From Maritimibacter sp. DP1N21-5 (GTDB lineage: Bacteria; Pseudomonadota; Alphaproteobacteria; Rhodobacterales; Rhodobacteraceae): DNA of 64,000 nt. The number at the start of each line of letters is the position of its first letter. Positions within the stretch are counted from its first letter, which is position 1. The position numbers were made by a program, and so were the translations under genes. Shown here piece by piece: positions 1 to 11,865 of the stretch. Under the pieces are notes generated by a model. The model saw only the letters and a program-made list of their open reading frames with translations, made no database searches and was not told the DNA's origin. The stretch is taken from positions 806,001 to 870,000 of the forward strand of contig NZ_JAHUZF010000006.1 in assembly GCF_019218295.1 (NCBI RefSeq), given 5' to 3'.

Positions 1-18
1 CATCAAGGGTTACAGGAC

Positions 19-729
19 ATGAGCACCGAAGTTTCCACGCAGGTCACACCCGCGCTTCACCCGGACAACGTCAAGCACATCGACGGCTACAATGACGAGA
101 CCGCCAAGGTGCTCGGCATGACCGAGACCGCGTTCAGCACCGCCTACAACGGCATCATCAACGTGGCGAACGCGCGCGAAAAAGCCAAGACGAACCCGAC
201 TTGGAACGAAGCGCAGCAAATCATCCATACACAGGAACTGGCCGACAAGGTGATGGACACCATCTCCCGGAGCTTCGACAGCACCCGCGCCAACCTCGTG
301 AAGGGCATCAACTTCCTTGAGGGTGAGTTGAACATGCCACTGACCGAAGCTGCGGCAGGTGCGTTCGGCAAGGAAATCCGTGACCACGTGAAGGGGCTGA
401 ACACCGGCGAGCGGCAGACCTTCATCCAGAAGCACATCGACGCGGGCGACGAACGGGTCGTCAGTGCCATACTCGGCGCGCCCCCGTTCCTGTCGGGCCT
501 CGACGCGGACATGCAAAGCACCCTGACGCGCTTCTGGCACATGAAGCGCCAGCCCGACAAGGCCGCCCGCCTCAAGGTGATGCAGGGTGCCAGGGAACTG
601 ATCGAGACCCGCGCCGGGCTGGTGTTCAAGGAGCTTGAGAAGGCCGTCGGTATGCGCCCCGACAAGGTGCGTCTGTTGCGTCAGGCCAAGACCGAGGCCG
701 AGAAGGCGTTCCTGCTCAAGGACGCCTGA
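19..729 (+). CDS. Module gene 1, element A copy; unknown function
   Basis: A 236-residue, largely hydrophilic and probably helical protein of unknown function. It has no signal peptide or membrane segment. It is homologous to the 248-residue protein at 8804-9550: both share an N-terminal stretch with a Leu/His-Pro motif and the signature AILGAPPFLSGL / AVLGAPPMLSGL near residue 155, followed by a basic helical C-terminus with ELEKAVG / EMERAVG. It is the first gene of a tight five-gene operon. It begins with ATG after the weak ribosome site GGGTTACAGGAC. A virion- or DNA-associated role would be a guess; I recognise no family. Confidence 0.8.
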   Translation: MSTEVSTQVTPALHPDNVKHIDGYNDETAKVLGMTETAFSTAYNGIINVANAREKAKTNPTWNEAQQIIHTQELADKVMDTISRSFDSTRANLVKGINFLEGELNMPLTEAAAGAFGKEIRDHVKGLNTGERQTFIQKHIDAGDERVVSAILGAPPFLSGLDADMQSTLTRFWHMKRQPDKAARLKVMQGARELIETRAGLVFKELEKAVGMRPDKVRLLRQAKTEAEKAFLLKDA

Positions 730-757
730 TCGCACCTGTAACATCAGAGGACAACGC

Positions 758-1192
758 ATGACCGATGCATCTACACTGCCAGAGAAGGCTGGATGGTATC
801 CGGGGATGAAGTCCCCGAACCCGGCTGGCCGCCCTGCGGGCCGCACTCCGATGGCTCAGCTACAGAAGCGGTTGCTTGAGGAAGGCCCCGCTGTGCTGGA
901 CGCGGTGCTTGAGAAGGCAAAGCAGGGCGACCCCGCCAGCGCGGGTCTCGTCCTCAGCCGCATCCTGCCGGTGCTCAAGGCGCAGGGCGAGAAGGTCAAG
1001 TTCCACCTCGACCCGTCGCTGCCGCTGGCCGCTCAGGTGGAGCAGGTGTTGGCCGCCATCGCGTCCGCACAAATTGCCCCTGACGTGGGGCGACAGATTA
1101 TCGAGGCCATCGGCACGCTGGGCAACATCCGCGCGGTGGAAGAACTGGAACAGCGCATCATCACGCTGGAAGCGAAGGAGGTGGGCCGATGA
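758..1192 (+). CDS. Module gene 2, element A copy; DUF5681-like
   Basis: A 144-residue protein with the short N-terminal motif GMKSPNPAGRPAG, which resembles the DUF5681 signature (G-x-S-G-N-P-x-G-R-P) found in phage and mobile-element proteins often encoded near terminase genes. The rest is helical and ends in a predicted coiled coil (EELEQRIITLEAKE). The homologue at 9575-10069 keeps the motif (GMRSPNPSGKP) and the same C-terminus. The start at 758 is chosen for its upstream AGAGGA. Its stop overlaps the next start by 4 bp (ATGA). A small-terminase-like role is possible but is only suggested by the motif. Confidence 0.75.
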   Translation: MTDASTLPEKAGWYPGMKSPNPAGRPAGRTPMAQLQKRLLEEGPAVLDAVLEKAKQGDPASAGLVLSRILPVLKAQGEKVKFHLDPSLPLAAQVEQVLAAIASAQIAPDVGRQIIEAIGTLGNIRAVEELEQRIITLEAKEVGR

Positions 1193-1545
1193 GCTACATC
1201 GAGACCAAACGGAACCAAGTGCATGTCGGCAGGCCGCTGGCGACGGATACGGTTGTGGCCACATTCCTGCACGGCAGCACCGGGCCGCGCCGCCTGCTCT
1301 GCGTCCAGCCGCTCGCCAACTACCAGCGCGCGGTCAACTGGGCGCTGTCGATGGCCGACTACATGGCCGGCCCCATCGAACTGCTACCCTACGAGAGCGA
1401 GGAAGCGCTGCAACACGCGCTGTTCATGTCGGAGGTCCACCACCTCACCTTCGCATCCGACGACCCCGAGGTGAGACTGGAGGCGCGCGAACTGTTCCTG
1501 TCGCTCGCGGACTGGCCGACCATCAGGGAGCGGAGGAAGCAATGA
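1189..1545 (+). CDS. Module gene 3, element A copy; unknown function
   Basis: A 118-residue protein of unknown function. The first about 75 residues are homologous to the 81-residue protein at 10069-10314. The shared core reads QPLANYQRAVNWALSMADYM / QPIANYQKAVAWATSMADQM, preceded by a His-Gly-Ser motif. The element A copy has an extra about 40-residue C-terminal tail that the element B copy lacks. It overlaps the genes on both sides by 4 bp, so translation is probably coupled through the operon. Confidence 0.7.
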   Translation: MSYIETKRNQVHVGRPLATDTVVATFLHGSTGPRRLLCVQPLANYQRAVNWALSMADYMAGPIELLPYESEEALQHALFMSEVHHLTFASDDPEVRLEARELFLSLADWPTIRERRKQ

Positions 1546-1817
1546 GACAACCCGCACCGAGCATTCCATACTCAAACGCACGACCAGTCGAGTATGACCA
1601 CAGTGACGATGGCGACATCACCTATGTCGACGGGAAGGCCTATCGCCGCGAGACCTCGCGCCACGACCTCGACAACACCATCACGCCCGACGAGCAGAAG
1701 GTTCTGCACCTGCGCCGTCTGGAGGAGGCCGAGTTTCGGCAAGCCCACAATGACGCAAACCTCGCTGCCGCGCTGCGCCTCGGTGAAGCGCTGCGCGTGC
1801 TGAAAGGCGAGGACTGA
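1542..1817 (+). CDS. Module gene 4, element A copy; unknown function
   Basis: A 91-residue charged protein of unknown function. It shares with the 98-residue protein at 10311-10607 an N-terminal region with YDHxD, a YxDGKAYRRE / FHAGRYFRDE segment, and a C-terminal helix ending LGEALRVLKGED / LGAALKVLRGEA. The ATG overlaps the preceding stop by 4 bp, and the GGAGGAAG ribosome site lies inside the upstream gene. It is probably cytoplasmic, with no membrane segments. Confidence 0.68.
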   Translation: MRQPAPSIPYSNARPVEYDHSDDGDITYVDGKAYRRETSRHDLDNTITPDEQKVLHLRRLEEAEFRQAHNDANLAAALRLGEALRVLKGED

Positions 1818-1821
1818 CCAC

Positions 1822-2022
1822 ATGTCCAGCGCCCGCACCCTCCTGAATCGCGTCGCTCGGCTGGAATACGCACGAGCACCCAAGCACTCTCGCGTCGCTT
1901 GCGCCTACGGGAGCTTTGAGGCGTTCGCTGAGCAGATGCGGCAGGAGATGGCGGCGGGTGCGCTGGACCGGGACTTCCCGCTTCCGCACCTTGAGCGATG
2001 GGAGCGGGAGGGGTTGTGTTGA
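1822..2022 (+). CDS. Module gene 5, element A copy; small unknown protein
   Basis: A 66-residue protein that starts 4 bp after the stop of module gene 4. It is homologous to the 69-residue protein at 10604-10813: both open with LLxRVxRLE, then have a YGSFEAF / FGSFATF motif, a helix (EMAAGALDRDFP / EIAAGKLAKDFP) and a C-terminal LxxWExxG. The function is unknown. Conservation in two diverged element copies argues that this small frame is a real gene. Confidence 0.65.
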   Translation: MSSARTLLNRVARLEYARAPKHSRVACAYGSFEAFAEQMRQEMAAGALDRDFPLPHLERWEREGLC

Positions 2023-2420
2023 CGGACCCCGATTGGCTGGTGGGCTACCGGGCCAAGCACCCCGCAGCCGCGCCCGCAGCCGCGACAGCGCCGCCCCCAC
2101 AGCCGCAGGCCGCACCGAGCCAAGGCGGTAAGGACGGCGCGGTTGTGACTCGCGCTATAGCGCCAGCACAGACAGCGATCCGTAAAGACATCAGCCCGCA
2201 AGGTTTAAGCGAGCCGGTCTTCAAGGCATGGCCGTTTGACGGCGGCAAGTGCCGCGAGCCCGTTCTCGATCTAGATTACGACCCGCCACGCGTGGTCAGG
2301 AAGGTTGGATGGCGCGTGTGCATGTGCTGCGCCAAGCCGTTCTGGAGTGACGACACAATCCGCCAACGCTTGTGCGGTGAGTGCAAAGCGCCCCCAAGGG
2401 GGCAGAGACGAAACCCATAA
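1998..2420 (+). CDS. Cargo-slot protein with C-terminal zinc-ribbon
   Basis: A protein of up to 140 residues, followed by the operon terminator. The N-terminal half is Pro/Ala-rich and probably disordered. The C-terminus carries four cysteines as CxxC...CxxC (CMCCAKPF, then LCGECK), which suggests a small zinc ribbon. The ATG at 1998 overlaps gene 5 by 25 bp. A TTG at 2019 overlaps its stop as TTGA and has GGGAGGGG at better spacing, so the true start may be there. It has no counterpart in element B, where this slot holds a nuclease-like gene. Confidence 0.6.
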   Translation: MGAGGVVLTDPDWLVGYRAKHPAAAPAAATAPPPQPQAAPSQGGKDGAVVTRAIAPAQTAIRKDISPQGLSEPVFKAWPFDGGKCREPVLDLDYDPPRVVRKVGWRVCMCCAKPFWSDDTIRQRLCGECKAPPRGQRRNP

Positions 2421-2544
2421 CCGTCGCGCGGAGTGGCAGCGACGGTGCGGCCTCGCCAGCCGCCCGAGGCATAGCGGTTCAGTTCCTCGTTAAGCTCAAC
2501 AACCGCAGTCAGGGCGGGGTAACTCCTTTCCCCGTGACCTGTAG

Positions 2545-2579
2545 AGCGGTCCGCGTGCATGTGCAGCGGGCCGCTTTTT
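2545..2579 (+). terminator. Terminator of element A operon
   Basis: Ten-base-pair stem (2545-2554 with 2566-2575, one G-T pair) around an 11-nt loop, followed by five T. A similar hairpin with the same AGCGG...CCGCT outer stem follows the homologous operon in element B (10959-10990). Confidence 0.75.
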
Positions 2580-2689
2580 GCTGAGCGCTATGACTCGTGC
2601 ACAGCGGCTAGCATAGCGCTAGCACGGGCCGCCAATAGCAAAACAGCCCCGTGAGAGGGGCCGCTTAAGTGCTTGCTGTAGCTAGGTAA

Positions 2690-2736
2690 TTTGGCTCCGG
2701 CGGTAGGGATCGAACCTACGACCAATTGATTAACAG
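2690..2736. repeat. Left attachment site (tRNA-Asn 3' fragment)
   Basis: Forty-seven bases identical to 11789-11835. They correspond to the 3' half of tRNA-Asn from the anticodon loop through CCA. There is no 5' half here, so this is a recombination scar and not a second tRNA. It separates element A from element B. It also provides the boundary sequence after which the integrase gene of element B begins. Confidence 0.9.
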
Positions 2737-2775
2737 GAAAGCGTAATTGTGGTTAGTAGTGGTTAGCAGAGGTTT

Positions 2776-2890
2776 GCGTAAGTATACAAAACCCTTTACA
2801 GACAGGTGTTTGAGGCTCGTTTACATCAATTGGACGTTAGCGTAGGTTAACGCAAGTTAGCTGAAAAGTCTTACGCGAGTCTTACGCGAG
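2776..2890. repeat. Candidate integrase arm-type sites, left end
   Basis: The 7-mer CTTACGC occurs at 2870-2876 and 2881-2887 inside an 11-bp direct repeat, and inverted as GCGTAAG at 2776-2782. The same 7-mer occurs twice at the other end of the element with the same 11-bp spacing (11707 and 11718). One helical turn between sites and a position between the core site and int fit arm-type binding sites. The wider 2421-2898 stretch otherwise holds the terminator, the att site and short GGTTAG repeats, with no gene seen. Confidence 0.55.
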
Positions 2891-2898
2891 GTTCAACG

Positions 2899-4215
2899 AT
2901 GCCCAAAATGAAATTCACCAGAACTGCTATTGAGAAGCTGCGTCCCGACCCCGAGCGGGACACGCTGTATTGGGATACCGGTACGCGCGGCCTCGGCCTG
3001 AGGGTAACGAAGGGCGGGGTGTTCAGCTTCATCTGCCAAGGCCGGGTGCGCGGGACCACGAAGGACCGCCGCGTCACCATCGGGAGCTATGGGATTAAGG
3101 GCGGCCTGACATTGGAAGAAGCGCAGGGACGCGCGGATGACTACCGCAAGCTCTTTCAAGACGGTGTTGACCCGAACGACCTGAAGAAGAAGCACGAGGT
3201 TGAGATGGTGACGCTTGGCGCTGTGGCCAAGGAGTATCTGGCCATCGGCAACCTGAAGCCAACCACGGTCAAGTGGATCAACTACTACACCGACCGCGTG
3301 TTCGCAGACTGGAAGGACAAGCCCATCGCGTCGATCAACCGCGACATGGTGAAAGAGCGCCATGCTGAGTTGAAGCGGGGCGGCCTGCACGGCAAGAAGC
3401 CCGCACCATCCACCGCCAACGCCGCGATGGTCGTTTTGCGCACCCTCATCAACTTCGCCATCGAGGACTATACGCTGCCGGACGGCACGCAGTTGATTAC
3501 CACAAACCCGGTGCATGTTCTGAACGGTAAGGGCAAGAATAAGCGGTGGGCACCCGAGGGCGACCGGACTGATCGGTATATCCCGGTGGATCGCCTTGGG
3601 GCGGTCTGGAACATGCTGCAAGAGCTGCGGCAGACAACGACGCATAGCGACACTCTGTCCGCAGTCGATCTGGTGATATTCAGTCTCCTGTGCGGTGGGC
3701 GGAAGAACGAGGGCGCGGGACTGACTTGGGATCGAGTGCATTTCGAGGACGACCCGGCGCGGTGCTACTGGCACCTCAAGGACCGGAAACAGGGCAAGCC
3801 CATTAACCTGCCGATGCCAATGCAGGCGATAGCACTGCTGAAAGAGCGGCGGCGCATGACGAATGGCGACCATGTGTTCCCAAGCCGGGGCAGGAAAGGT
3901 TATGTGACGGACCCTCGCGCGACGATGGAGAAGGTGAGCGAGGTTGCGGGGCTTCACCTTTCACTCCATGACATGCGGCGCACGTTTAGCGAAACCTCAG
4001 TAAAGGCCTGCCGCATCGAGCGGTTTCGCGGTGACCTGTTGATCGGTCATAAGCCCGACCAGCGCGATGTTGGCGCGAATAGCTATTTGGACCTGACCGA
4101 TCTGCGGTGGCTTTACCCCGAGGTCCAGCAGGTTGCGGACTGGATTGAAGAACAGGCGCGCATTGCGGCTGCGAAGGCGGCGAGCGCGAATGTCGTGGAC
4201 ATGCAGCGCGCATAG
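2899..4215 (+). CDS. P4-type tyrosine recombinase (integrase)
   Basis: The 438-residue integrase of element B, which would join the element to tRNA-Asn by site-specific recombination. The N-terminal about 95 residues fit the DUF4102/arm-binding domain of P4-type integrases, then a core-binding domain (about 105-200) and a catalytic domain. Visible catalytic residues are Arg268 (CGGRKNE), His357 and Arg360 (LHDMRR), His384 (IGHK) and Tyr396 (NSYLDL). It starts 160 bp inside the left att site and reads into the element, the usual layout for this family. The length is normal and there is no disruption, so it is probably functional. Confidence 0.93.
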   Translation: MPKMKFTRTAIEKLRPDPERDTLYWDTGTRGLGLRVTKGGVFSFICQGRVRGTTKDRRVTIGSYGIKGGLTLEEAQGRADDYRKLFQDGVDPNDLKKKHEVEMVTLGAVAKEYLAIGNLKPTTVKWINYYTDRVFADWKDKPIASINRDMVKERHAELKRGGLHGKKPAPSTANAAMVVLRTLINFAIEDYTLPDGTQLITTNPVHVLNGKGKNKRWAPEGDRTDRYIPVDRLGAVWNMLQELRQTTTHSDTLSAVDLVIFSLLCGGRKNEGAGLTWDRVHFEDDPARCYWHLKDRKQGKPINLPMPMQAIALLKERRRMTNGDHVFPSRGRKGYVTDPRATMEKVSEVAGLHLSLHDMRRTFSETSVKACRIERFRGDLLIGHKPDQRDVGANSYLDLTDLRWLYPEVQQVADWIEEQARIAAAKAASANVVDMQRA

Positions 4216-4528
4216 TCGCCCCGTATCCCCCGAAAAATGCCGGCAGCAGCCGGGGATCGGGGTTTGCCGGGGGTAGGGTAGCGGCGGTTGCGGCTCGCCC
4301 TGTAGCGCGGCCCCTGCGCAAACGCTGTGTTTCGTATCCATGTGCAAAAAGCGTTTGCCGGGCGCAGGGGGCATAGGTTATCGGTAGTTATACGTGCCGC
4401 ACTGGGGCGCGCCCACGAGGAAAGTTCCAGAGCCAGAACCAAGTGGAGCAAGGGTGAAAGCCCCCCAGGACACAGCTTAAACGCCCAAGACCGCGAAGGA
4501 GCGGCACGGGCAAGCTGGAGTCCTCATT
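4216..4528. other. Intergenic stretch, no gene seen
   Basis: The 313 bp between the integrase and the AlpA-like gene include GC-rich inverted repeats near 4240-4285 that could terminate int. A GGAG ribosome site lies just before 4529. I see no convincing coding frame. Confidence 0.5.
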
Positions 4529-4849
4529 ATGGCCCCACAGGCTCTCAACTACGACCCCGACCAGATGCTGACGACCGAGGAAGCTGCGCCCCTCTGCGGC
4601 TACGCGGAGAGCACCATGAAGCTCAACCGTCACCTTAAACGTGGACCCAAGTTCATCAAGCTCGGAGACGGCAAGAACGCCGCTGTGCGTTACCGTCGCG
4701 GTGACATTGACGCATGGCTGACGGAGCGCACGTTCGCTTCCACCAGTGAATACAGCGCCGTGGCGCGTCATTCGCAGAGCCGTGCGCGCAACGGCATCCC
4801 CGCGCACGCCTCGCATGTCACTCCGCCGTGGCTTCGGCCGACCGTCTGA
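4529..4849 (+). CDS. AlpA-like helix-turn-helix regulator
   Basis: A 106-residue protein whose first about 65 residues fit the AlpA / helix-turn-helix family: LTTEEAAPLCGYAESTMK is the recognition segment, then GPKFIKLG and VRYRRGDIDAWL, the typical wing and C-terminal helix. In P4-like elements and satellites such proteins control integrase expression or excision, and that is the likely role here. It stands between the integrase and the replication gene, as in many satellites. The start has CTGGAG about ten bases upstream. The basic C-terminal 40 residues are not conserved in the family. Confidence 0.8.
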   Translation: MAPQALNYDPDQMLTTEEAAPLCGYAESTMKLNRHLKRGPKFIKLGDGKNAAVRYRRGDIDAWLTERTFASTSEYSAVARHSQSRARNGIPAHASHVTPPWLRPTV

Positions 4850-4860
4850 GGGTGCATACA

Positions 4861-5034
4861 ATGTTCAGCAACCCTAACGGACTCAAGCTGCGGGCGCGTT
4901 TGCGTGCGCCCGCCACGCGAAAAGACATGCGTAAGAACCATCATGAAAAGCGGCCGGATGCTGGGGGCACCCGACCGCTGAAAGGACATTGGACAATGAA
5001 CCCCACCGAGCAGGATAAGGAGCTCATGCAATGA
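4861..5034 (+). CDS. Small ORF upstream of replication gene; unknown
   Basis: A 57-residue basic frame starting at ATG 4861, behind GAGGGTG, and ending with a 4-bp ATGA overlap with the replication gene start at 5031. The overlap and a good AAGGAG inside its 3' end (serving the next gene) suggest it is translated as a coupling leader or small protein. It has no recognisable domain. A non-coding interpretation remains possible. Confidence 0.4.
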   Translation: MFSNPNGLKLRARLRAPATRKDMRKNHHEKRPDAGGTRPLKGHWTMNPTEQDKELMQ

Positions 5035-6641
5035 GTATGGGAAATAACGCCGGTATCGGCAACGACGCCATGCACACGGATGTGCCCGAATACCTGGGGC
5101 CTGTGACGTGGGTGGACGTTTCGAGGATCTACGAACAGGCGGCGCGCATTGGCGAGGCTGACACGGCTGAAACCGAGGACGAGCCTGGGGTTGACCCCAA
5201 CTACCATGCCGACATGCGGCGGATCATGGACAGCCGGGGGCTGTTCTTCATGGACGTTCCTGCACCTCCCGCGCCGGTGAAGCGCCGTCGCGTCACCATG
5301 CCCACGCCCGCGCCGCTGGACTGGCCGCCGGGGTTTGCAGGGGAGCTTGCGCAGTTCATCTACCGCACCGCACCGCGCCCGGTGAAAGAGGTTGCTATTG
5401 TCGCGGCCCTTGGCTTGCTGGCGGGCATCTGTGGCAAGGCATGGCATATCCCGCAGTCAGGCCTGAACCTCTACATTGTGCTCATTGCCCGTAGCGCCGT
5501 GGGTAAGGAGGCGATGCACAGCGGCATCAGCGCCATTATCCGTGCCTGTGCGCGCGAGAACCCGATGTTTCATAAGTTCGTGGACTTCACGGAATACGCA
5601 TCCGGGCCAGCACTGGTGAAGGCCTGTGTGGGCAACCCCTGTTTCGTCAACGTGAGCGGCGAGTTGGGGCGCAAGATCAAGACAATGGCAGACGCTCGGT
5701 CGGACAGCCCGCAACATACCCTGCAAACGCAGCTCACCAACCTTTACCACAAATCCGGGCCTCAGGCGATCGTGGGCGGGCTGGGTTACAGCAACACCGA
5801 CAACAACGTCCAGTCGGTCGCCGGGGTCAGCTACAGCGTCATTGGGGAAACGACGCCGGGGACGTTTCTTGAGTCCCTGACGAAGAACATGACGGAAAAC
5901 GGCTTCGTGTCGCGCTGGCTGGTCGTCGAATACGCGGGCGAGCGCCCGCTGAAAAACGCGCGTGCCAACGTTACTCCCCCGGAGGCTATGCGACGGGCGC
6001 TTAACAACATGGCCACGCAGGCGGACTTGCTGATCGCCAAGGACCAGTCGCAGTTCGTGGAACGGGAGGTTGGGGCGGGCCTTTCGCTCGATCTGTTTAG
6101 CAACTATTGCGACGACCGCATTAACGAGAGCGGCGATGACGAAGCGCGGCGCGCCATGTGGAACCGCGCGCACCTCAAGGCGCTCAGGGTGGCCGCATTG
6201 CTGGCAGTCGCGGACAACTACAATGCGCCGGTGATCCGCCAGCAGCACGCGGACTGGGCAATCAACATTGTCCAGCGCGACATTGTGGCGTTTGCGAAGC
6301 GTCTGGACAGTGGCGACGTGGGCACCGGCGACGAGGCGCGGCAGGACAAGCTGTTCACCATCCTCCGGGAATACCTGACGCTGGAGGTGCCCGCGAGCTA
6401 CAAGGTTCACCCCGAGATGAAGAAGAACGATATTGTGCCGCTGCATTACCTGCAAAAGCGGACCAAGAGGGCCGCAGCTTTCTATGACCACAGGTTCGGT
6501 GCCAACCGTGCCTTGGACGACGCGCTGGGGGCGCTGATCGCGGGCGGATACGTCATGGAGGTGCAGCGCGACAGGGTGGTTGAGGCGTATAGCTACCACG
6601 GCAAGGGGTTTCGCATTCTGCGCCTGCCCGAACCAGACTAA
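5031..6641 (+). CDS. DUF3987-like replication protein (primase/helicase type)
   Basis: A 536-residue protein that resembles the DUF3987 family of ATPase/helicase-like proteins found in phages, plasmids and satellites. A P-loop-like segment is visible at about 150-162 (YIVLIARSAVGKEA), where the usual T/S-G-x-G-K is degenerate as S-A-V-G-K-E. The following 250 residues match the conserved core (SGELGRKI, SVIGETTPGTF, GFVSRWLVVEY). It is followed directly by an iteron-rich region that looks like an origin, which supports a replication-initiation or helicase role. AAGGAG precedes the start. The exact enzymatic activity is inferred. Confidence 0.75.
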   Translation: MSMGNNAGIGNDAMHTDVPEYLGPVTWVDVSRIYEQAARIGEADTAETEDEPGVDPNYHADMRRIMDSRGLFFMDVPAPPAPVKRRRVTMPTPAPLDWPPGFAGELAQFIYRTAPRPVKEVAIVAALGLLAGICGKAWHIPQSGLNLYIVLIARSAVGKEAMHSGISAIIRACARENPMFHKFVDFTEYASGPALVKACVGNPCFVNVSGELGRKIKTMADARSDSPQHTLQTQLTNLYHKSGPQAIVGGLGYSNTDNNVQSVAGVSYSVIGETTPGTFLESLTKNMTENGFVSRWLVVEYAGERPLKNARANVTPPEAMRRALNNMATQADLLIAKDQSQFVEREVGAGLSLDLFSNYCDDRINESGDDEARRAMWNRAHLKALRVAALLAVADNYNAPVIRQQHADWAINIVQRDIVAFAKRLDSGDVGTGDEARQDKLFTILREYLTLEVPASYKVHPEMKKNDIVPLHYLQKRTKRAAAFYDHRFGANRALDDALGALIAGGYVMEVQRDRVVEAYSYHGKGFRILRLPEPD

Positions 6642-7047
6642 TCGGTGAGAGGCACGGCAGATCGGTATGACCACAGTGGCACCGTGTAACGCGCGTAACA
6701 TTCGCCAGTTACACGGTTTTCACCGGCATTTCCCTTCTTTTGCAGGTATTTATACAACATGTGTAACATGTAACTAGTGTAACACGGGGTATCCCATTTA
6801 GCCTTACGCTGGGGAGGGAGGCCCTTACGTAAGGCAGGGTAGCCCCACCCCCCGTAAGGCTTTTGCTCTCTCTAGGGTTACACGTTACACGGTTACACAA
6901 AGGGGCGGCCCGGGCTTTACGCGGCAGCCGGGAGCTGGCCCGCCTTACGCTTTACCAACACTCAAGGGCGGTCTGGACCCAAGCGGCTGGAACTGCATGG
7001 GTCTGGCATGTGGTTATACCGAGCGGCAAGGCGTGCGTAAGACGTTC
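6642..7047. other. Candidate replication origin with two iteron families
   Basis: No gene is seen here. The 7-mer GTTACAC or its complement occurs seven times: 6684-6690, 6708-6714, 6761-6767, 6777-6783, 6877-6883, 6884-6890 and 6892-6898. A second motif, CCTTACG or its complement, occurs at 6802, 6823, 6828 (forming the palindrome CTTACGTAAG), 6853 and 6943. An AT-richer patch with TATACAACATG lies at 6751-6762. The location right after the replication gene fits an element origin. The last about 90 bp lie past the stop of the convergent gene and look featureless. Confidence 0.6.
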
Positions 7048-8571
7048 TCACTCTTTCTTGTTTATTCCGTTTCTGAACTTGTCGACCAAGATGTTAAGGA
7101 TTGGGTGAGGAACCTTTCCTTCGGGAATATCCTTCGACGGTGTCAGTTTGTCGGCAGGGTTAAAGGCGAGCTGTTCGAGAACAAGTGCAGCAATTTCACT
7201 TTCATAGCCTGCGGCTTGCTTTCTGAATCCTTCGACGGATACAGCCATTGAATACTTGTAAGCATAGTGCTCCCTCAGTCGGAACAGTGACGAGTGACGT
7301 ATGGCTGAGAAGGAGACAAGCCATGCTGCCGGGAGAAGTATAATAAAACGAGCCAAGACCTGCCCCAGATATTGCCAACCACTAATCTCCGCATGCGTGT
7401 CGATTGCTGGCGCGGCACTGGCAAGCTCAGGGTAACGAGCCTGCAAGAAAGGAGCCAGAATTGGAAGGAATACATAGAGCATTAATGGGATCGCAGAGAT
7501 GAAAAGAAAGGCGATGCCCACATAGAAGCTCACACGCGCCCAGAGTAGCTGCCAACCAAGTTTGCGGTGCGCTTCTGAGAAGCTGCTGGCAAGGCCCGCG
7601 ACGGTCGCGCCCTTTAGCATGCTTTCGCTGCTTTCTATCAGCTCCTTTACCGCCTCCTTTTGTCCATCAAATTTGGCAAATAGACTATCCTGCTTCTCTT
7701 TCCCTAGCTCAAAGTCCTTATTTCGGTTTTCAAGTTGCCGGTCGAACGATTTGAACTTCTCCCTATACTCTTCCACCTCATTTTCTAATGATGATGCTTC
7801 GGTGTGAGCAGTTTCAATGGCGGTTTTCTTTTCAGTAGCGTCAGCGAGATATTCACCTATGGTCTTGCGATCCTTGGCGCCCTCATCCCTTGTGCGAATT
7901 GTTTCTTCAGCGGCTTCCTTGGCTTTGCTTGCTTGTGTTTCTGCGGCTGAGACTTGCTGTGAGGCTGCGGCAACTGCCTGCCTCAAAGCCTTATTCTCCT
8001 CATGCAAATTGCGGATTTGTTCACTGGATGACTCAATCAGCGACGACAGAGCATTTGCTGCTGCCTGAAAGCTGTAAGTAGAACGGGTCGGCCTAAGGAC
8101 CGTCAAAACCAAATAGAACGCATCCAGTAGAGTTTCGGTGCTGTCACTGAAATTCTTGAAGTACCCTCTAAAGTCGTGGTTTTGTCCATTCGTCGTTTGG
8201 AGTTGAAAGTTGTCATAGTTGAACAACTGCATGCCGCCGCCACCTTTTATCACCTGGCGGAACTGATTTCCTAATGTGTCTAGGTGCTGTTGGGCTTCGT
8301 CTATTCTTTGCTTGAGCAGGGTTATCCTGTTGGCCGGGACCATCAGGAAGTGTTTAGAGCTTCCAAATTTGTCGGCAATCTCCGCTATAGCCGTGACTCG
8401 ACTGACGCAATCAGCGAATGAAATGTCGGTTCCATGAATCGCCTTTGCAACATCGAAGCTGGGCGATGCGTCCTCGCCGGAGCTGTTGAAGAACCCAAGT
8501 AGTTCGGTTGCCGTCGAGGCTAAGTCTTTTGCGTTAAGGCTAATCTCATCAATCTTTGTCTTACGCATCAC
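7048..8571 (-). CDS. Membrane-anchored coiled-coil protein, AT-rich cargo gene
   Basis: A 507-residue protein. Residues 1-165 form a globular N-terminal part, about 170-315 a long Ala/Glu/Lys-rich coiled coil, about 347-372 and 403-424 two membrane segments, and then a cytoplasmic tail with FRLREHYAYKYSMAVSVEGFRKQA split as LREHYAYKYS and VEGFRKQA. Its base composition is visibly lower in GC than every neighbour, and it is on the opposite strand to the rest of the element, so it was probably acquired separately. Membrane-anchored coiled-coil proteins of this layout are common in defence islands. An anti-phage role is an inference from location and architecture only. Confidence 0.8.
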   Translation of the reverse strand: MMRKTKIDEISLNAKDLASTATELLGFFNSSGEDASPSFDVAKAIHGTDISFADCVSRVTAIAEIADKFGSSKHFLMVPANRITLLKQRIDEAQQHLDTLGNQFRQVIKGGGGMQLFNYDNFQLQTTNGQNHDFRGYFKNFSDSTETLLDAFYLVLTVLRPTRSTYSFQAAANALSSLIESSSEQIRNLHEENKALRQAVAAASQQVSAAETQASKAKEAAEETIRTRDEGAKDRKTIGEYLADATEKKTAIETAHTEASSLENEVEEYREKFKSFDRQLENRNKDFELGKEKQDSLFAKFDGQKEAVKELIESSESMLKGATVAGLASSFSEAHRKLGWQLLWARVSFYVGIAFLFISAIPLMLYVFLPILAPFLQARYPELASAAPAIDTHAEISGWQYLGQVLARFIILLPAAWLVSFSAIRHSSLFRLREHYAYKYSMAVSVEGFRKQAAGYESEIAALVLEQLAFNPADKLTPSKDIPEGKVPHPILNILVDKFRNGINKKE

Positions 8572-8803
8572 TGCTCCACACGTTTTGGGAGACTATACAT
8601 CCGAAACTCCCGTTTCCTAGCGTGATGTTCTTCTGTGCCGACCGCACGAGGTTCGCTGGACCGTTTGATGTGCGGTCAGCCCGTCCACGTGACGAAGATT
8701 TGATGCAAGCAATTGATCGCAAAACAAAATCCTAGCGGACCTATTTGCGAAAGTCCTACGCTGAAACTGCAAGCATAAGTTTCACTCTGTATCCGAGGAC
8801 AAA

Positions 8804-9550
8804 ATGGCAACCGAGATTGACACCCGCGTCTCCATCGACCTTCACCCCGAAACCGTGATGAAGCTGGATGGCGTGGACGCCGACACCGCGCCCTTCATCG
8901 CCCCTGCGGTCGAAGCGTTCGAGGGCGCGTATTCCTACCTTACCAGCATCCACGAGGTGCGCGCGGCGGCGTTTGCCGACCCGACGCTGACTCCGGAAGC
9001 GGCGCTGCTCCGCACCGACGACCATGCGGCGGGCAAGTTGGCCGCTGTGACGCAGCGGTTCGACAACACCATTGCCCGGTTCACCACTACCATCAAATCG
9101 CTGGAAAGCGACCTGTCCGCGTCCGTGAAGGAACTGGCCGGCAAGGCGGTGAGTGGCGAGGTGCGGGCGCACATGAAGGCGAGCAAGGACCGCGTGAAGC
9201 TGATGGAGCAGGCGCTGGCGGAGAAGGACGACGAAGTTTTGTCCGCCGTGCTGGGCGCGCCGCCCATGCTGTCGGGACTGTCGAAGGAACTGCACGCCGT
9301 CTTCCTCCGCGCCTACAATGAGCAGCGCAAACCAGAGGCCAGCAAGCGGCTGAAGGCGCTCACGGCTGCCCGGACGCACCTTGAGAACCGGGGCGGGCTG
9401 ATCCTGCGTGAGATGGAACGGGCGGTCGGCACCGTGCCAATCATCAAGCAGGACAAAGCATGTGTCTCCCGCATCGTCGGAAAGGTCACGCCCCGCGAGG
9501 TGCGTGCCGCGCGCAACGCTTCCGCCGCTGTCTACAAGAAACACGCCTGA
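8804..9550 (+). CDS. Module gene 1, element B copy; unknown function
   Basis: A 248-residue protein, hydrophilic and probably helical, homologous to the element A protein at 19-729 (shared AVLGAPPMLSGL, ILREMERAVG, and an N-terminal LHPETVMKLDG). The two copies are clearly diverged along their length, so this is old divergence and not a recent duplication. It opens the five-gene operon and is divergent from the coiled-coil gene across a 232-bp promoter region. A GAGGAC ribosome site precedes the ATG. No family was recognised. Confidence 0.8.
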   Translation: MATEIDTRVSIDLHPETVMKLDGVDADTAPFIAPAVEAFEGAYSYLTSIHEVRAAAFADPTLTPEAALLRTDDHAAGKLAAVTQRFDNTIARFTTTIKSLESDLSASVKELAGKAVSGEVRAHMKASKDRVKLMEQALAEKDDEVLSAVLGAPPMLSGLSKELHAVFLRAYNEQRKPEASKRLKALTAARTHLENRGGLILREMERAVGTVPIIKQDKACVSRIVGKVTPREVRAARNASAAVYKKHA

Positions 9551-9574
9551 ACCGTCAGAGAGGCACCTTGATTC

Positions 9575-10069
9575 ATGGATCAGCAAAACGATCGGGAGAC
9601 CGAGGTTGAACAGCCTGACTGGCTGAAGAACTACACCCCGGCACCCGGCCCGTTGCGGGGCAACCCAAACTGGCACAAGGGCATGAGAAGCCCGAACCCA
9701 AGCGGCAAGCCTGCTGACTTTGGGGTCGCCCGCACGAAGATCACCAAGCTGCTCTTGGAGAACGCGGGCGGCATTCTGGAGCGTCAGATCGAGAAGGCGT
9801 TGGAGGGCGACAGTGCTGCGGCCCAGCTCATCCTCTCGCGCGTCATCGCTCCGCTCAAGTCCGACAGCGGGCGGGTCAAGTTCGACTTTGACGCTTCGCT
9901 ACCGATCAGCGCTCAGGTCGAGAAGGTGTTGGAGGCTGTGGCCACAGGGAAGGTCAGCCCCGAGGTGGCGCAGCAAATCGTCTCCGCCATTGGCACGTTG
10001 TCGTCGGTGCGGGCGACCGAGGAGTTGGAGCAGAGGATTGTTCAACTCGAAGCCAAGGCGGTGAACTGA
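9575..10069 (+). CDS. Module gene 2, element B copy; DUF5681-like
   Basis: A 164-residue homologue of the element A gene at 758-1192. The DUF5681-like motif GMRSPNPSGKP lies at about residues 36-46, after a longer N-terminus than in element A. The C-terminal half is well conserved (KFDFDASLPISAQVEKVLE, SAIGTLSSVRATEELEQRI). The stop overlaps the next ATG by one base (TGATG). The motif suggests a phage-packaging-associated or DNA-associated protein; the function is not established. Confidence 0.75.
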   Translation: MDQQNDRETEVEQPDWLKNYTPAPGPLRGNPNWHKGMRSPNPSGKPADFGVARTKITKLLLENAGGILERQIEKALEGDSAAAQLILSRVIAPLKSDSGRVKFDFDASLPISAQVEKVLEAVATGKVSPEVAQQIVSAIGTLSSVRATEELEQRIVQLEAKAVN

Positions 10070-10314
10070 TGAGTGTCGTTCATACAACGCGCAACATGGT
10101 GGCAGCCTACGAGATTCTTGCGGGCGACACGCATGTCGAAACATGGATTCACGGTTCGGAGGGACGCTACCTACTGCTCGTGCAGCCCATCGCCAACTAC
10201 CAGAAGGCGGTGGCGTGGGCGACCAGCATGGCGGACCAGATGGCGCATCATATCGAGATCATGCCTATCTCAGCCGATGAGTATCAGCAGCGGTATGGAG
10301 GGCGGGCGCAGTGA
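10069..10314 (+). CDS. Module gene 3, element B copy; unknown function
   Basis: An 81-residue protein homologous to the first part of the element A protein at 1189-1545, with the shared core VQPIANYQKAVAWATSMAD and an upstream HGSEG. It lacks the C-terminal extension of the element A copy. It overlaps its neighbours by 1 and 4 bp, which indicates translational coupling. The function is unknown. Confidence 0.7.
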   Translation: MSVVHTTRNMVAAYEILAGDTHVETWIHGSEGRYLLLVQPIANYQKAVAWATSMADQMAHHIEIMPISADEYQQRYGGRAQ

Positions 10315-10607
10315 GACGGACCCCATCGGAATTACCCTATACGGGCCGCTCGTGGGTGGATGAACCGCAACGGGTGCAGACTTATGACCACGACAACTAC
10401 CGCAACCTCACCTTCCATGCAGGGCGATACTTCCGCGACGAAAGCACCATCCGCGACCCCGACTATTCGGCGAAGGCGGACGACTTGAAGGCGATACGCG
10501 AGCGGAGCGCAGAGGAAGCAGAAGATCGGCAAGCCCGCAAAGACGCGAACTTCGCCCGCGCCTTGGAGTTGGGCGCCGCGCTGAAAGTGCTGCGGGGCGA
10601 GGCATGA
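10311..10607 (+). CDS. Module gene 4, element B copy; unknown function
   Basis: A 98-residue charged protein homologous to 1542-1817. It has YDHDNYRN near residue 25, FHAGRYFRDES, and a C-terminal helix ALELGAALKVLRGEA. It overlaps the preceding and following genes by 4 bp each. No domain was recognised. Conservation across the two elements supports a real gene. Confidence 0.68.
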   Translation: MRRTPSELPYTGRSWVDEPQRVQTYDHDNYRNLTFHAGRYFRDESTIRDPDYSAKADDLKAIRERSAEEAEDRQARKDANFARALELGAALKVLRGEA

Positions 10608-10813
10608 GCGTCCGGGGTCTCCTTGGCCGGGTTCGGCGTCTGGAAGAGGCACGGCTACCGCGACCCTCGCCATTCGTCCGCCTGTTCGGTTCATTCGCCA
10701 CCTTCGAGGCGAAGTGCCTTGAGGAAATAGCGGCGGGCAAGCTGGCGAAGGACTTTCCCATCGACGCGCTGGCGCAATGGGAAACTGACGGAACGTGGCA
10801 GGCGGGACGGTAA
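10604..10813 (+). CDS. Module gene 5, element B copy; small unknown protein
   Basis: A 69-residue protein homologous to 1822-2022: LLGRVRRLEEARL, FGSFATFEAK, EIAAGKLAKDFP, then LAQWETDG. It is the last gene of the operon and overlaps gene 4 by 4 bp. A hairpin terminator follows at 10959. The function is unknown. Confidence 0.65.
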   Translation: MSVRGLLGRVRRLEEARLPRPSPFVRLFGSFATFEAKCLEEIAAGKLAKDFPIDALAQWETDGTWQAGR

Positions 10814-10958
10814 GGGACGGACAAGGTCAATATGCCCGCGTGATTGGAGTGGCGTCACGCGGTGCAGGCTCGCCACCTGCACGAGCTTTAGGAAACCGAC
10901 GCTCGCTAAACCATCGGGACCAGCTAGGGCGGGTCATCTCCTTGCCAGCGACCTAGCA

Positions 10959-10990
10959 AGCGGCTCGGGACATGCGTCCGGGCCGCTTTT
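10959..10990 (+). terminator. Terminator of element B operon
   Basis: GC-rich stem 10959-10971 with 10976-10987 (one bulged base) and a 4-nt loop, followed by a short T run. It is similar to the terminator after the homologous operon at 2545-2579. Confidence 0.65.
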
Positions 10991-11232
10991 CGTAAGCTCC
11001 TATCATCATTGAAGTATATCACGTCACGTGGCAGAGATGGTTTGCGGTGCAGCAAATTCTGCCCGTGGGGCGTGGAATCCCCTCGATGCGTAGCTCGGTC
11101 GAATTTTCGGCCGGGTGACCGTCGCGTATGTCCAGGCGCACGCTAAAGGCGGCGGTGCCTCGGGCTACGCACGAGGATTCCAACACCCGGCTTTGATCCG
11201 GGCAGCCTCTCAGATGCAGGGAGGTTGCGCCG
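10991..11232. other. Intergenic stretch, no gene seen
   Basis: Between the operon terminator and the nuclease-like gene (the gene-free part runs 10814-11232 including the terminator). It contains short inverted repeats but no coding frame I can support. A GGGAGG ribosome site for the next gene sits just before 11233. Confidence 0.45.
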
Positions 11233-11652
11233 ATGGCTGCTCAAAGCTCACCGCCGATAAGGCACCAGATAACCGGCAACTCCGGGCTGAACTATGCAGC
11301 ATGGCAGCTATCGCGGCGTGGTTGGCACGTCATGCCGACAATACGCAACGCACGGGGTTCCGACCTAATCATCACAGATGCCGATGAAACCGTGTTCTAC
11401 GGCGTTCAGTCCAAGGCCTTGAGTAAACGCTATGCTGTGCCCCTCGGTCGGAAGATCGAGGAGCTACGCTCGGAGTGGTGGGTGATCACAATTCACGCCA
11501 ATTCCGACAAGCCGACTTGCTTTGTCATGCGGAACTCTGAGGTGAGAGCGCTCGCGCAGCAAGACAAGAAGGGTGGCGCGTATTGGCTGGAGCCGACAGC
11601 ATATGACCGCGACGAGTTTCGTGAGGCATGGGATCGTCTTGATGCCAAGTAG
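11233..11652 (+). CDS. PD-(D/E)XK nuclease-like cargo protein
   Basis: A 139-residue protein with a pattern typical of small PD-(D/E)XK-fold nucleases: a short N-terminal helix (NYAAWQLSRRGW), then GSDLII with the acidic residue, then a strand FYGVQSKA giving a Q-x-K variant of the E-x-K motif. A following strand (WWVITIHA) and helix fit the fold. Similar stand-alone proteins occur in restriction or resolvase contexts. It sits in the same slot, just inside the right att site, where element A has an unrelated zinc-ribbon gene. The nuclease assignment is moderate and the target is unknown. Confidence 0.6.
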   Translation: MAAQSSPPIRHQITGNSGLNYAAWQLSRRGWHVMPTIRNARGSDLIITDADETVFYGVQSKALSKRYAVPLGRKIEELRSEWWVITIHANSDKPTCFVMRNSEVRALAQQDKKGGAYWLEPTAYDRDEFREAWDRLDAK

Positions 11653-11706
11653 GCGGTTTGCGTTCTGATTCAGCAGCTTACACACCAGCCAGATCTACTG
11701 GCAGGT

Positions 11707-11724
11707 CTTACGCAAAACTTACGC
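11707..11724. repeat. Candidate integrase arm-type sites, right end
   Basis: CTTACGC occurs at 11707-11713 and 11718-11724, 11 bp apart, matching the pair at 2870 and 2881. It lies about 65 bp inside the right core site. Confidence 0.55.
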
Positions 11725-11788
11725 AGGATTCATGAACTACTAAGACCGCCAGTGACGGTCTCAGTATGTAGCTGTTTTTATTGGGATT

Positions 11789-11835
11789 TTTGGCTCCGGC
11801 GGTAGGGATCGAACCTACGACCAATTGATTAACAG
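11789..11835. repeat. Right attachment site within tRNA-Asn
   Basis: Forty-seven bases identical to 2690-2736. The repeat covers the tRNA from the anticodon loop to beyond the encoded CCA, and the sequences diverge immediately outside it. Confidence 0.9.
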
Positions 11836-11865
11836 TCAACTGCTCTACCGCTGAGCTACGCCGGA
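11791..11865 (-). tRNA. tRNA-Asn (GTT)
   Basis: A 75-nt cloverleaf including encoded CCA. The acceptor stem TCCGGCG pairs with CGCCGGA, the D arm begins GCTCAGC, the anticodon loop is CTGTTAA with GTT, and the T arm is GTAGGTTCGATCCCTAC. It is intact and is the integration target of the adjacent elements. Confidence 0.96.

Follow-up and report, generated by a model that had tools for sequence, protein, structure and literature searches.

What kind of mobile element has settled, twice over and side by side, at the tRNA-Asn gene of Maritimibacter sp. DP1N21-5? The two related elements concerned, designated A and B, lie at the left edge of a stretch of 64,000 nucleotides (C6:806001-870000, C6 being contig NZ_JAHUZF010000006.1), which is referred to as the window and whose own numbering is used below unless C6 is named. 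Judged from their genes, layout and recurrence, A and B probably belong to a new family of phage satellites of the Rhodobacterales and near kin, similar to the so-called phage-inducible chromosomal islands (PICIs). The original prediction had suggested an undescribed satellite family at this locus, and the suggestion gains support from a gene module that recurs elsewhere, a candidate small terminase and a phage-type replication protein, while packaging by a helper phage is something that we infer.

The 3' end of the tRNA-Asn gene is present in three exact copies, i.e., 46 nt at C6:800541-800586 (5,460 bp left of window position 1), the A/B junction at window 2690 (C6:808692), and the intact gene. 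The 47-bp repeat reported previously is exact at 2690-2736, the distal attachment site (att) of B, and at 11789-11835, the tRNA-proximal att of B within the tRNA 3' end; both copies and the intact tRNA-Asn (GUU; 11791-11865) are on the minus strand. Since the next-best match to the tRNA end in the genome is 77% over 60 nt, exact matches of 45-46 nt at two further places are not a matter of chance. Exact copies of the tRNA-Asn 3' end, 45-47 nt long, mark the limits of each element while the tRNA itself stays whole, and the copy left of the window indicates that A and B are both complete. Element A spans C6:800541-808691 (8,151 bp), its left part having been read outside the window in the same genome and its right part occupying window 1-2689, and B spans 2690-11788 (9,099 bp), both in plus orientation. 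Extension to the left, which had been proposed as a check, thereby located the left end and integrase of A, together with an AlpA-like protein, an AAA_25 replication protein and a membrane protein, and no capsid genes of the kind that a full prophage would carry. Furthermore, the 72 nt left of the distal att of A are 92% identical to the tRNA-proximal end of a Thioclava element (E 5e-24) and are most plausibly all that is left of a third inserted element; nothing like them was seen by eye beside tRNA-Asn in four same-genus flanks (of seven genomes), and the 14.5 kb left of A hold no other element sequence and no RNA of the type described below. Serial integration at one site, as originally proposed, is supported by the two complete elements and this trace. 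Because B adjoins the tRNA, it is presumably the younger insertion, A and the remnant having been pushed outward. tRNA repeats lacking element boundaries did not turn up among the relatives that were read. The sequence left of A has no match in seven other same-genus genomes, so that no empty site was seen there, and the proteins left of A gave weak matches only (28-30%) to DNA beside tRNA-Asn of same-genus genomes.

Read towards the tRNA, starting at the far att, both elements have the integrase gene first, then those of the AlpA-like protein and the replication protein, a single gene on the opposite strand and finally g1 to g5, with g6 in addition in A. The first four genes of A fall left of the window, and its plus-strand operon comprises g1 (19-729; 236 aa, without family match), g2 (758-1192), g3 (1189-1545), g4 (1542-1817), g5 (1822-2022) and g6 (1998-2420; a CxxC...CxxC protein). 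Element B encodes, on the plus strand, a tyrosine integrase (2899-4215; Arm-DNA-bind_3 plus Phage_integrase), an AlpA-like helix-turn-helix regulator or excisionase (4529-4849) and a predicted replication protein corresponding to the DUF3987 half of phage primase-helicases (5031-6641; phrog_3022, E 7e-144), followed by a minus-strand cargo gene (7048-8571) and by plus-strand g1 (8804-9550), g2 (9575-10069), g3 (10069-10314), g4 (10311-10607) and g5 (10604-10813). The AlpA-like proteins score below the Pfam cut-off as single proteins and match phrog_66 at E 3e-7 (A) and 3e-4 (B; 2.7e-4 unrounded). The operons at 19-2022 and 8804-10813, earlier described as diverged copies, are indeed homologous gene by gene (g1 to g5 being 33, 50, 55, 39 and 47% identical), and the integrases are 47% identical. 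The five-gene operon proposed earlier is the part common to both, while A has its sixth gene (1998-2420), absent from B; B in turn has an extra open reading frame (ORF; 11233-11652). A structured RNA after both operons had gone unnoticed. The replication slot holds an AAA_25 protein in A and a DUF3987 protein in B, and the opposite-strand gene encodes a 293-aa membrane protein in A and a 507-aa coiled-coil protein with hydrophobic stretches in B. In agreement with the earlier reading, a Pfam and PHROGs scan of 20 proteins of A and B returned capsid or tail families at chance level only; no relaxase family and no psu/delta/sid-type gene was matched among them.

The same module and layout recur in other genera, as the proposal of a family had anticipated. 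Relatives of g1 number 58 at E 1e-3 or better (8,000 scored candidates), of which eight carry an organism name, their genera being ones that we take to be Rhodobacterales; none was found in the phage or the plasmid collection. Matches to g1 occur in 5 of 195 relative genomes, the own genome included, the match in G030 reaching no better than E 8e-4. Genome contigs, when scanned, gave 12 loci, one of which has a fragment of g1, virus contigs contributed four distinct records, and genome searches added L049, L057 and L062, the last from another family of the class; L057 is not among the complete elements, since no far att was located for it. Twelve elements are delimited at both ends (A, B, L015, L016, L018, L019, L022, L023, L024, L025, L049 and L062), measure 8,151-10,212 bp and begin their integrase gene 179-209 bp from the distal att. 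They are inserted at tRNA-Asn (eight, counting L016, whose contig stops just past the second repeat with the tRNA gene itself unseen), Arg, Pro, Ser and Lys genes, the tRNA 3' repeats being exact in 11 of the 12 and imperfect in L049, and in all twelve the operon is nearest the tRNA, with the integrase at the opposite end. In profile searches, with profiles trained on the same elements that they scored, the integrase, AlpA, g1, g2, g3 and g5 were found in 12 of 12, g4 in 11 and g6 in nine. Replication genes are exchanged among elements (B and L025 have DUF3987, others have AAA_25 alone or together with PriCT-2, and the L049 protein is unclassified), the role of these proteins in A, B and L015 being predicted from sequence. 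Element A and L025, from an uncultured Aliiroseovarius, are 91.6% identical over the first 1,575 nt and 71-84% in other blocks, yet carry different replication genes, which points to recent mosaic exchange between hosts. The module genes are under purifying selection, the ratio of nonsynonymous to synonymous substitution (dN/dS) over eight single pairs being 0.11-0.19 for g1 to g6 (a single close pair for every gene), with 0.22 and 0.45 for the two distant comparisons. For several g1 and g2 relatives the longest contig measures 8-10 kb, as long as an entire element, and these contigs could be circular or packaged forms.

The second gene of the module, g2, is a candidate small terminase with a putative role in packaging, because its homologues precede the large terminase (TerL) in phages and the respective profiles match. 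Its DUF5681 match is weak, below the cut-off, and phrog_9747 is matched at E 1.5e-7 and 5.7e-8. Among 50,697 phage records, 59 match g2 at E 0.1 or better, none over 80% of its length, and 53 of these are Vibrio phages, many near-identical. Eight such records were opened, one without annotation; in the seven used for context (Kc259, 1.179.O, CKB-S2, Skarpretter, 1.039.O, 1.275.O and Kc237), the g2 homologue lies directly before TerL in five and one gene before it in two, the TerL of Kc237 being an unannotated gene identified in this analysis. A profile-profile comparison of satellite and bacterial g2 with the seven phage proteins gave a probability of 99.5% and E 1.1e-22 over 117 columns, from the N-terminal P-GR-P-G motif to the C-terminal region. 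According to PMC8954984, a DUF5681 protein was detected by mass spectrometry (two peptides) in the structural proteome of a Salmonella phage, and PMC6092414 names the small terminase as the gene by which some PICIs redirect packaging.

Integrase-bearing loci elsewhere (L050, L051, L053-L056 and L060) carry a g2 relative without g1 or the RNA, so that g2 is not confined to this element family; L052 and L058 have a g2 relative and no integrase match, g1 or RNA. All nine loci were excluded from the family. L059 retains pieces of g2 and g5. In L054 and L056, g2 is preceded by two proteins without PHROG match (471 and 865 aa, and 408 and 878 aa, respectively). L061 was dropped as a likely false match, no g2 appearing on re-scan. 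MT836812.1 (L031), an unannotated 'Bacteriophage sp.' record of 8,660 bp from human faeces, is of satellite-like size and matches g2 weakly (E 2e-3).

The second finding beyond the earlier reading concerns a stretch of roughly 150 nt that starts at the operon end or shortly after it in 11 of the 12 complete elements, which also trained the model used to find it. It occupies 2420-2579 in A (76.1 bits) and 10836-10992 in B (87.5 bits), both on the plus strand, and consists of a P1 hairpin, P2, P3 with an H-type pseudoknot, and P4, followed by a terminator-like hairpin. Sixteen blocks excised from complete and incomplete elements (147-175 nt) were aligned, and P2, P3, P4 and the pseudoknot were drawn by eye from them; the pairing percentage is consequently in part built in, and it is the double changes that put the structure to the test. 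In an alignment of 26 sequences (25 distinct), made by fitting to the model, 85.5% of cells pair and both partners have changed in 18 of 27 pairs; covariation scores 0.371 versus 0.162 in shuffles that ignore the relatedness of the sequences (0 of 500 as high), slid structures reaching at most 0.097. Further pair types were not distinct from shuffles with 16 sequences (176 of 500 as high) and only weakly distinct with 26 (24 of 500). The pseudoknot between the P3 loop and a downstream strand beats partner shuffles (0 of 500) and exists in several versions (GGAAACCGA/UCGGGACC, GGCAACCGU/ACGGAGCC and GCGGUU/AACCGC), while for a contact of the P1 and P4 loops (GGAGU/ACUCC, AGGAC/GUCCU, AAAGGA/UCCUUU) the support is weaker (0 of 1000 letter shuffles and 15 of 1000 partner shuffles as high).

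A search with the RNA model matched 9 of 389 relative genomes, the own one included. Eight strong matches (67-88 bits) lie outside the training set, namely a second copy in L015, L026, L083-L086, L091 and L092, six of them in four genomes that contributed no model sequence and two, L086 and the L015 copy, in genomes from which model sequences were taken. L083 retains g5, g6 and a distant integrase, and L084, cut by a contig end, retains g5 and g6, for which reason neither is counted as an orphan RNA; L086 and L091 keep g6 only, L092 a piece of g6, L026 pieces of g1 and g6, and L085 none of the six genes sought. Four of these matches (L026, L084, L085 and L086) are at most 700 nt from a tRNA. 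Copies with at most gene pieces left were seen at L026, L085, L086, L091 and L092, three of the five lying within that distance; the RNA outlives the element genes there, perhaps because of selection, perhaps simply because of the direction in which decay runs. A second RNA with a g6 remnant also lies upstream of the intact element in the Thioclava locus, indicating that element arrays recur. L088 and L089 are doubtful matches (37 and 33 bits). Rfam returned no match at the blocks of A and B (E up to 1; gathering cut-offs), and blastn with distant settings found no similar RNA in phage records (query the RNA of B only) or plasmids (query that of L022 only). Several hits were set aside as chance: MIR matches in the sequence read for element A (L006), below their own cut-offs; a weak model match at window 23167 (15.9 bits); and three viral contigs retrieved with two degenerate patterns, which have unrelated genes and were not confirmed by the model.

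In all likelihood, the block is a conserved working part of the elements, namely a regulatory RNA that is transcribed together with the operon or right behind it. An anti-Shine-Dalgarno function of the CUCCUU loop is kept as no more than a possibility, given that this loop may pair with the P1 GGAG loop inside the RNA. We would further suggest, tentatively and as a proposal that could well be wrong, that the RNA is a new class and family hallmark that acts in the contest between satellite and helper, either in trans, its CUCCUU and GGAG loops binding ribosome-binding sites of helper mRNAs, or in a packaging complex with g2; if so, satellites would control their helper through a structured RNA dedicated to that task, and copies that persist next to tRNAs once the genes are lost would go on acting on incoming phages. 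Could the block act as DNA instead, as a packaging or replication site with inverted repeats? It adjoins a candidate small terminase near the element end, and inverted repeats would likewise preserve complementarity. This seems unlikely to us in view of the both-side changes at 18 of 27 pairs with their covariation score, a pseudoknot preserved by several sequence types, the terminator-like hairpin that follows, and the lack of a similar sequence in the phage records searched with the block of B.

Cargo occupies a variable slot, either between the replication gene and g1 or between the integrase and AlpA. A PADLOC scan of 20 cargo or extra ORFs gave seven clear matches in four elements, three weak matches and ten without any. 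The clear matches are an EcoRV-like nuclease with a methylase (L015), a PDC-M34 pair with a HEPN domain (L018), PDC-M34A with a HEPN partner (L013) and a PtuA/AriA-like ATPase (L057); the weak ones are the 507-aa protein of B (by its coiled coil) and one ORF each of L024 and L064. By its position, the coiled-coil gene of B (7048-8571) is a candidate new defence gene, and the variable slots are a source of further candidates. The extra ORF of B (11233-11652, plus strand; 139 aa) is 76% identical over 127 aa to a protein of L023 and, through L023, is linked to a relative in L024, both relatives being located in the cargo slot of Frigidibacter elements.

As for links to phages, the replication protein of B matches the primase-helicases of 268 phage records, the best ten at no less than 60% identity; the best matches (60-62%) are to 58-kb Pseudomonas and Xanthomonas phages, and seven of the 268 records are Rhodobacter phages. 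In the own genome, one family search finds two capsid clusters and a second one finds a single TerL. One cluster, L111 (G000:C3:484000-503900), is a tailed prophage with TerL and a tape measure and is a possible helper; the second capsid/terminase cluster, L112, is presumably a gene transfer agent. Three satellites in virus contigs (L124, L125 and L127) are accompanied on their contig by terminase and head or tail genes; as loci of this kind are the ones that virus finders preferentially pick, the co-occurrence was given no weight as evidence for a helper.

If A and B are satellites, a helper phage would induce the element through AlpA, the integrase would excise it and the replication protein would copy its DNA. 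As the satellite's small terminase, g2 would then steer the large terminase of the helper to satellite DNA, which would leave in helper capsids, g1 and g3 to g6 would serve packaging or interference, and the interchangeable cargo would shield the host from other phages. A number of observations weigh against this picture. The g2 profile was gathered with a query that included three of the seven phage proteins, so that the two profiles compared above are not fully independent; g2 has no match to any solved small terminase; PHROGs labels its family, phrog_9747, 'unknown'; and in two of the seven phages the small gene between the g2 homologue and TerL could be the real small terminase. Furthermore, g1, g3 and g6 have no match in the 50,697 phage records (g4 and g5 were not searched), which leaves most of the module without a known phage partner, and L111, the one tailed prophage found, has a different protein (phrog_12540) before TerL, no helper having been identified. 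The RNA is absent from L062 and the incomplete L064 even with filters off (best scores 13.7 and 12.0 bits, elsewhere in the locus), and neither A nor B carries cargo that the PADLOC scan recognised as defence, the cargo of A being among the ten ORFs without any match.

The lack of a known helper would also fit integrative defence islands that are moved by passive transduction, through mobilisation by another element or by a gene transfer agent, g2 then being a DNA-binding protein without a packaging role. L112, which we presume to be such an agent, is present in the same genome, and a different element of about 21 kb occupies the same tRNA-Asn in a same-genus genome. PMC12595487 also describes islands at tmRNA or tRNA genes that have an integrase, AlpA and defence genes and are carried by a jumbo phage. 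We nonetheless hold this explanation to be improbable, as g2 is related to a protein encoded before TerL in phages, the size range is narrow (8.2-10.2 kb in all twelve), and the scanned proteins of A and B include no relaxase. Far less credible is the notion that A and B are decayed prophages stripped of their virion genes: a phage-type integrase, a primase-helicase and a gene in terminase position would fit such an origin, yet the twelve complete elements are alike in gene order and size, their frames are under purifying selection, different replication genes (DUF3987, or AAA_25 with or without PriCT-2) fill one slot, and capsid or tail families are lacking among the scanned proteins, chance-level scores aside.

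The satellite interpretation can also be set against described systems. To our knowledge, PICIs typically have no virion structural genes, and none was found among the 20 scanned proteins of A and B; of the other PICI traits, the elements possess an integrase with a specific att, an alpA-type regulator (in 12 of 12, by the trained profile) and a replication module. P4-like satellites carry an integrase, AlpA, their own replication protein and cargo, as do the present elements, and in addition psu/delta/sid-type genes, none of which was matched among the scanned proteins of A and B; P4 immunity rests on a small RNA. Integrative conjugative or mobilisable elements have a relaxase, a family likewise not matched among these proteins. 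The phage proteins of the phrog_9747/DUF5681 family, encoded before TerL, align with g2 over 117 columns, although no large terminase follows g2 in the elements. Gram-negative PICIs such as EcCICFT073 (PMC6092414) resemble the family in their integrase, alpA, replication module, small size, specific att and phage-resistance cargo; they sometimes have a terS homolog, to which g2 is the candidate counterpart, and as described there differ from it in that five tRNA site types, the g1-g6 module and the structured RNA are found here. A further difference is that g2 belongs to the DUF5681 family; since PICI membership rests on helper induction and packaging, the elements, which are known from their genes, are filed as PICI-like. 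The phage-inducible chromosomal minimalist islands (PICMIs) of Vibrionaceae, according to PMC10803314, are similarly small satellites with int, alpA, a primase and a cargo slot with defence genes. They are fis-adjacent and no terS homolog was found in them, in contrast to the tRNA genes, terS-like g2 and five- to six-gene module seen here, and on both the site and terS the present elements are not PICMIs by that description.

Literature searches, in which preprints and subscription papers were largely outside the scope, found no satellite of Rhodobacterales or Rhodobacteraceae and no such RNA; with subscription papers again largely outside, satellites combined with Alphaproteobacteria and small terminase led to Streptomyces work only. 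The compact, recurrent family joins a candidate packaging gene from a PHROGs-'unknown' family to a covarying, pseudoknotted RNA without Rfam match. It opens to direct test both the possible small-terminase role of DUF5681/phrog_9747 proteins and the function of a dedicated structured RNA in a satellite.

With regard to base composition, GC is 59.9% in A and 58.5% in B, versus 64.3% at window 12001-64000. The element of about 21 kb at the same tRNA-Asn in the same-genus genome (G006:C98; L109/L110) carries genes of 1,852, 952 and 844 aa and is perhaps a defence island.

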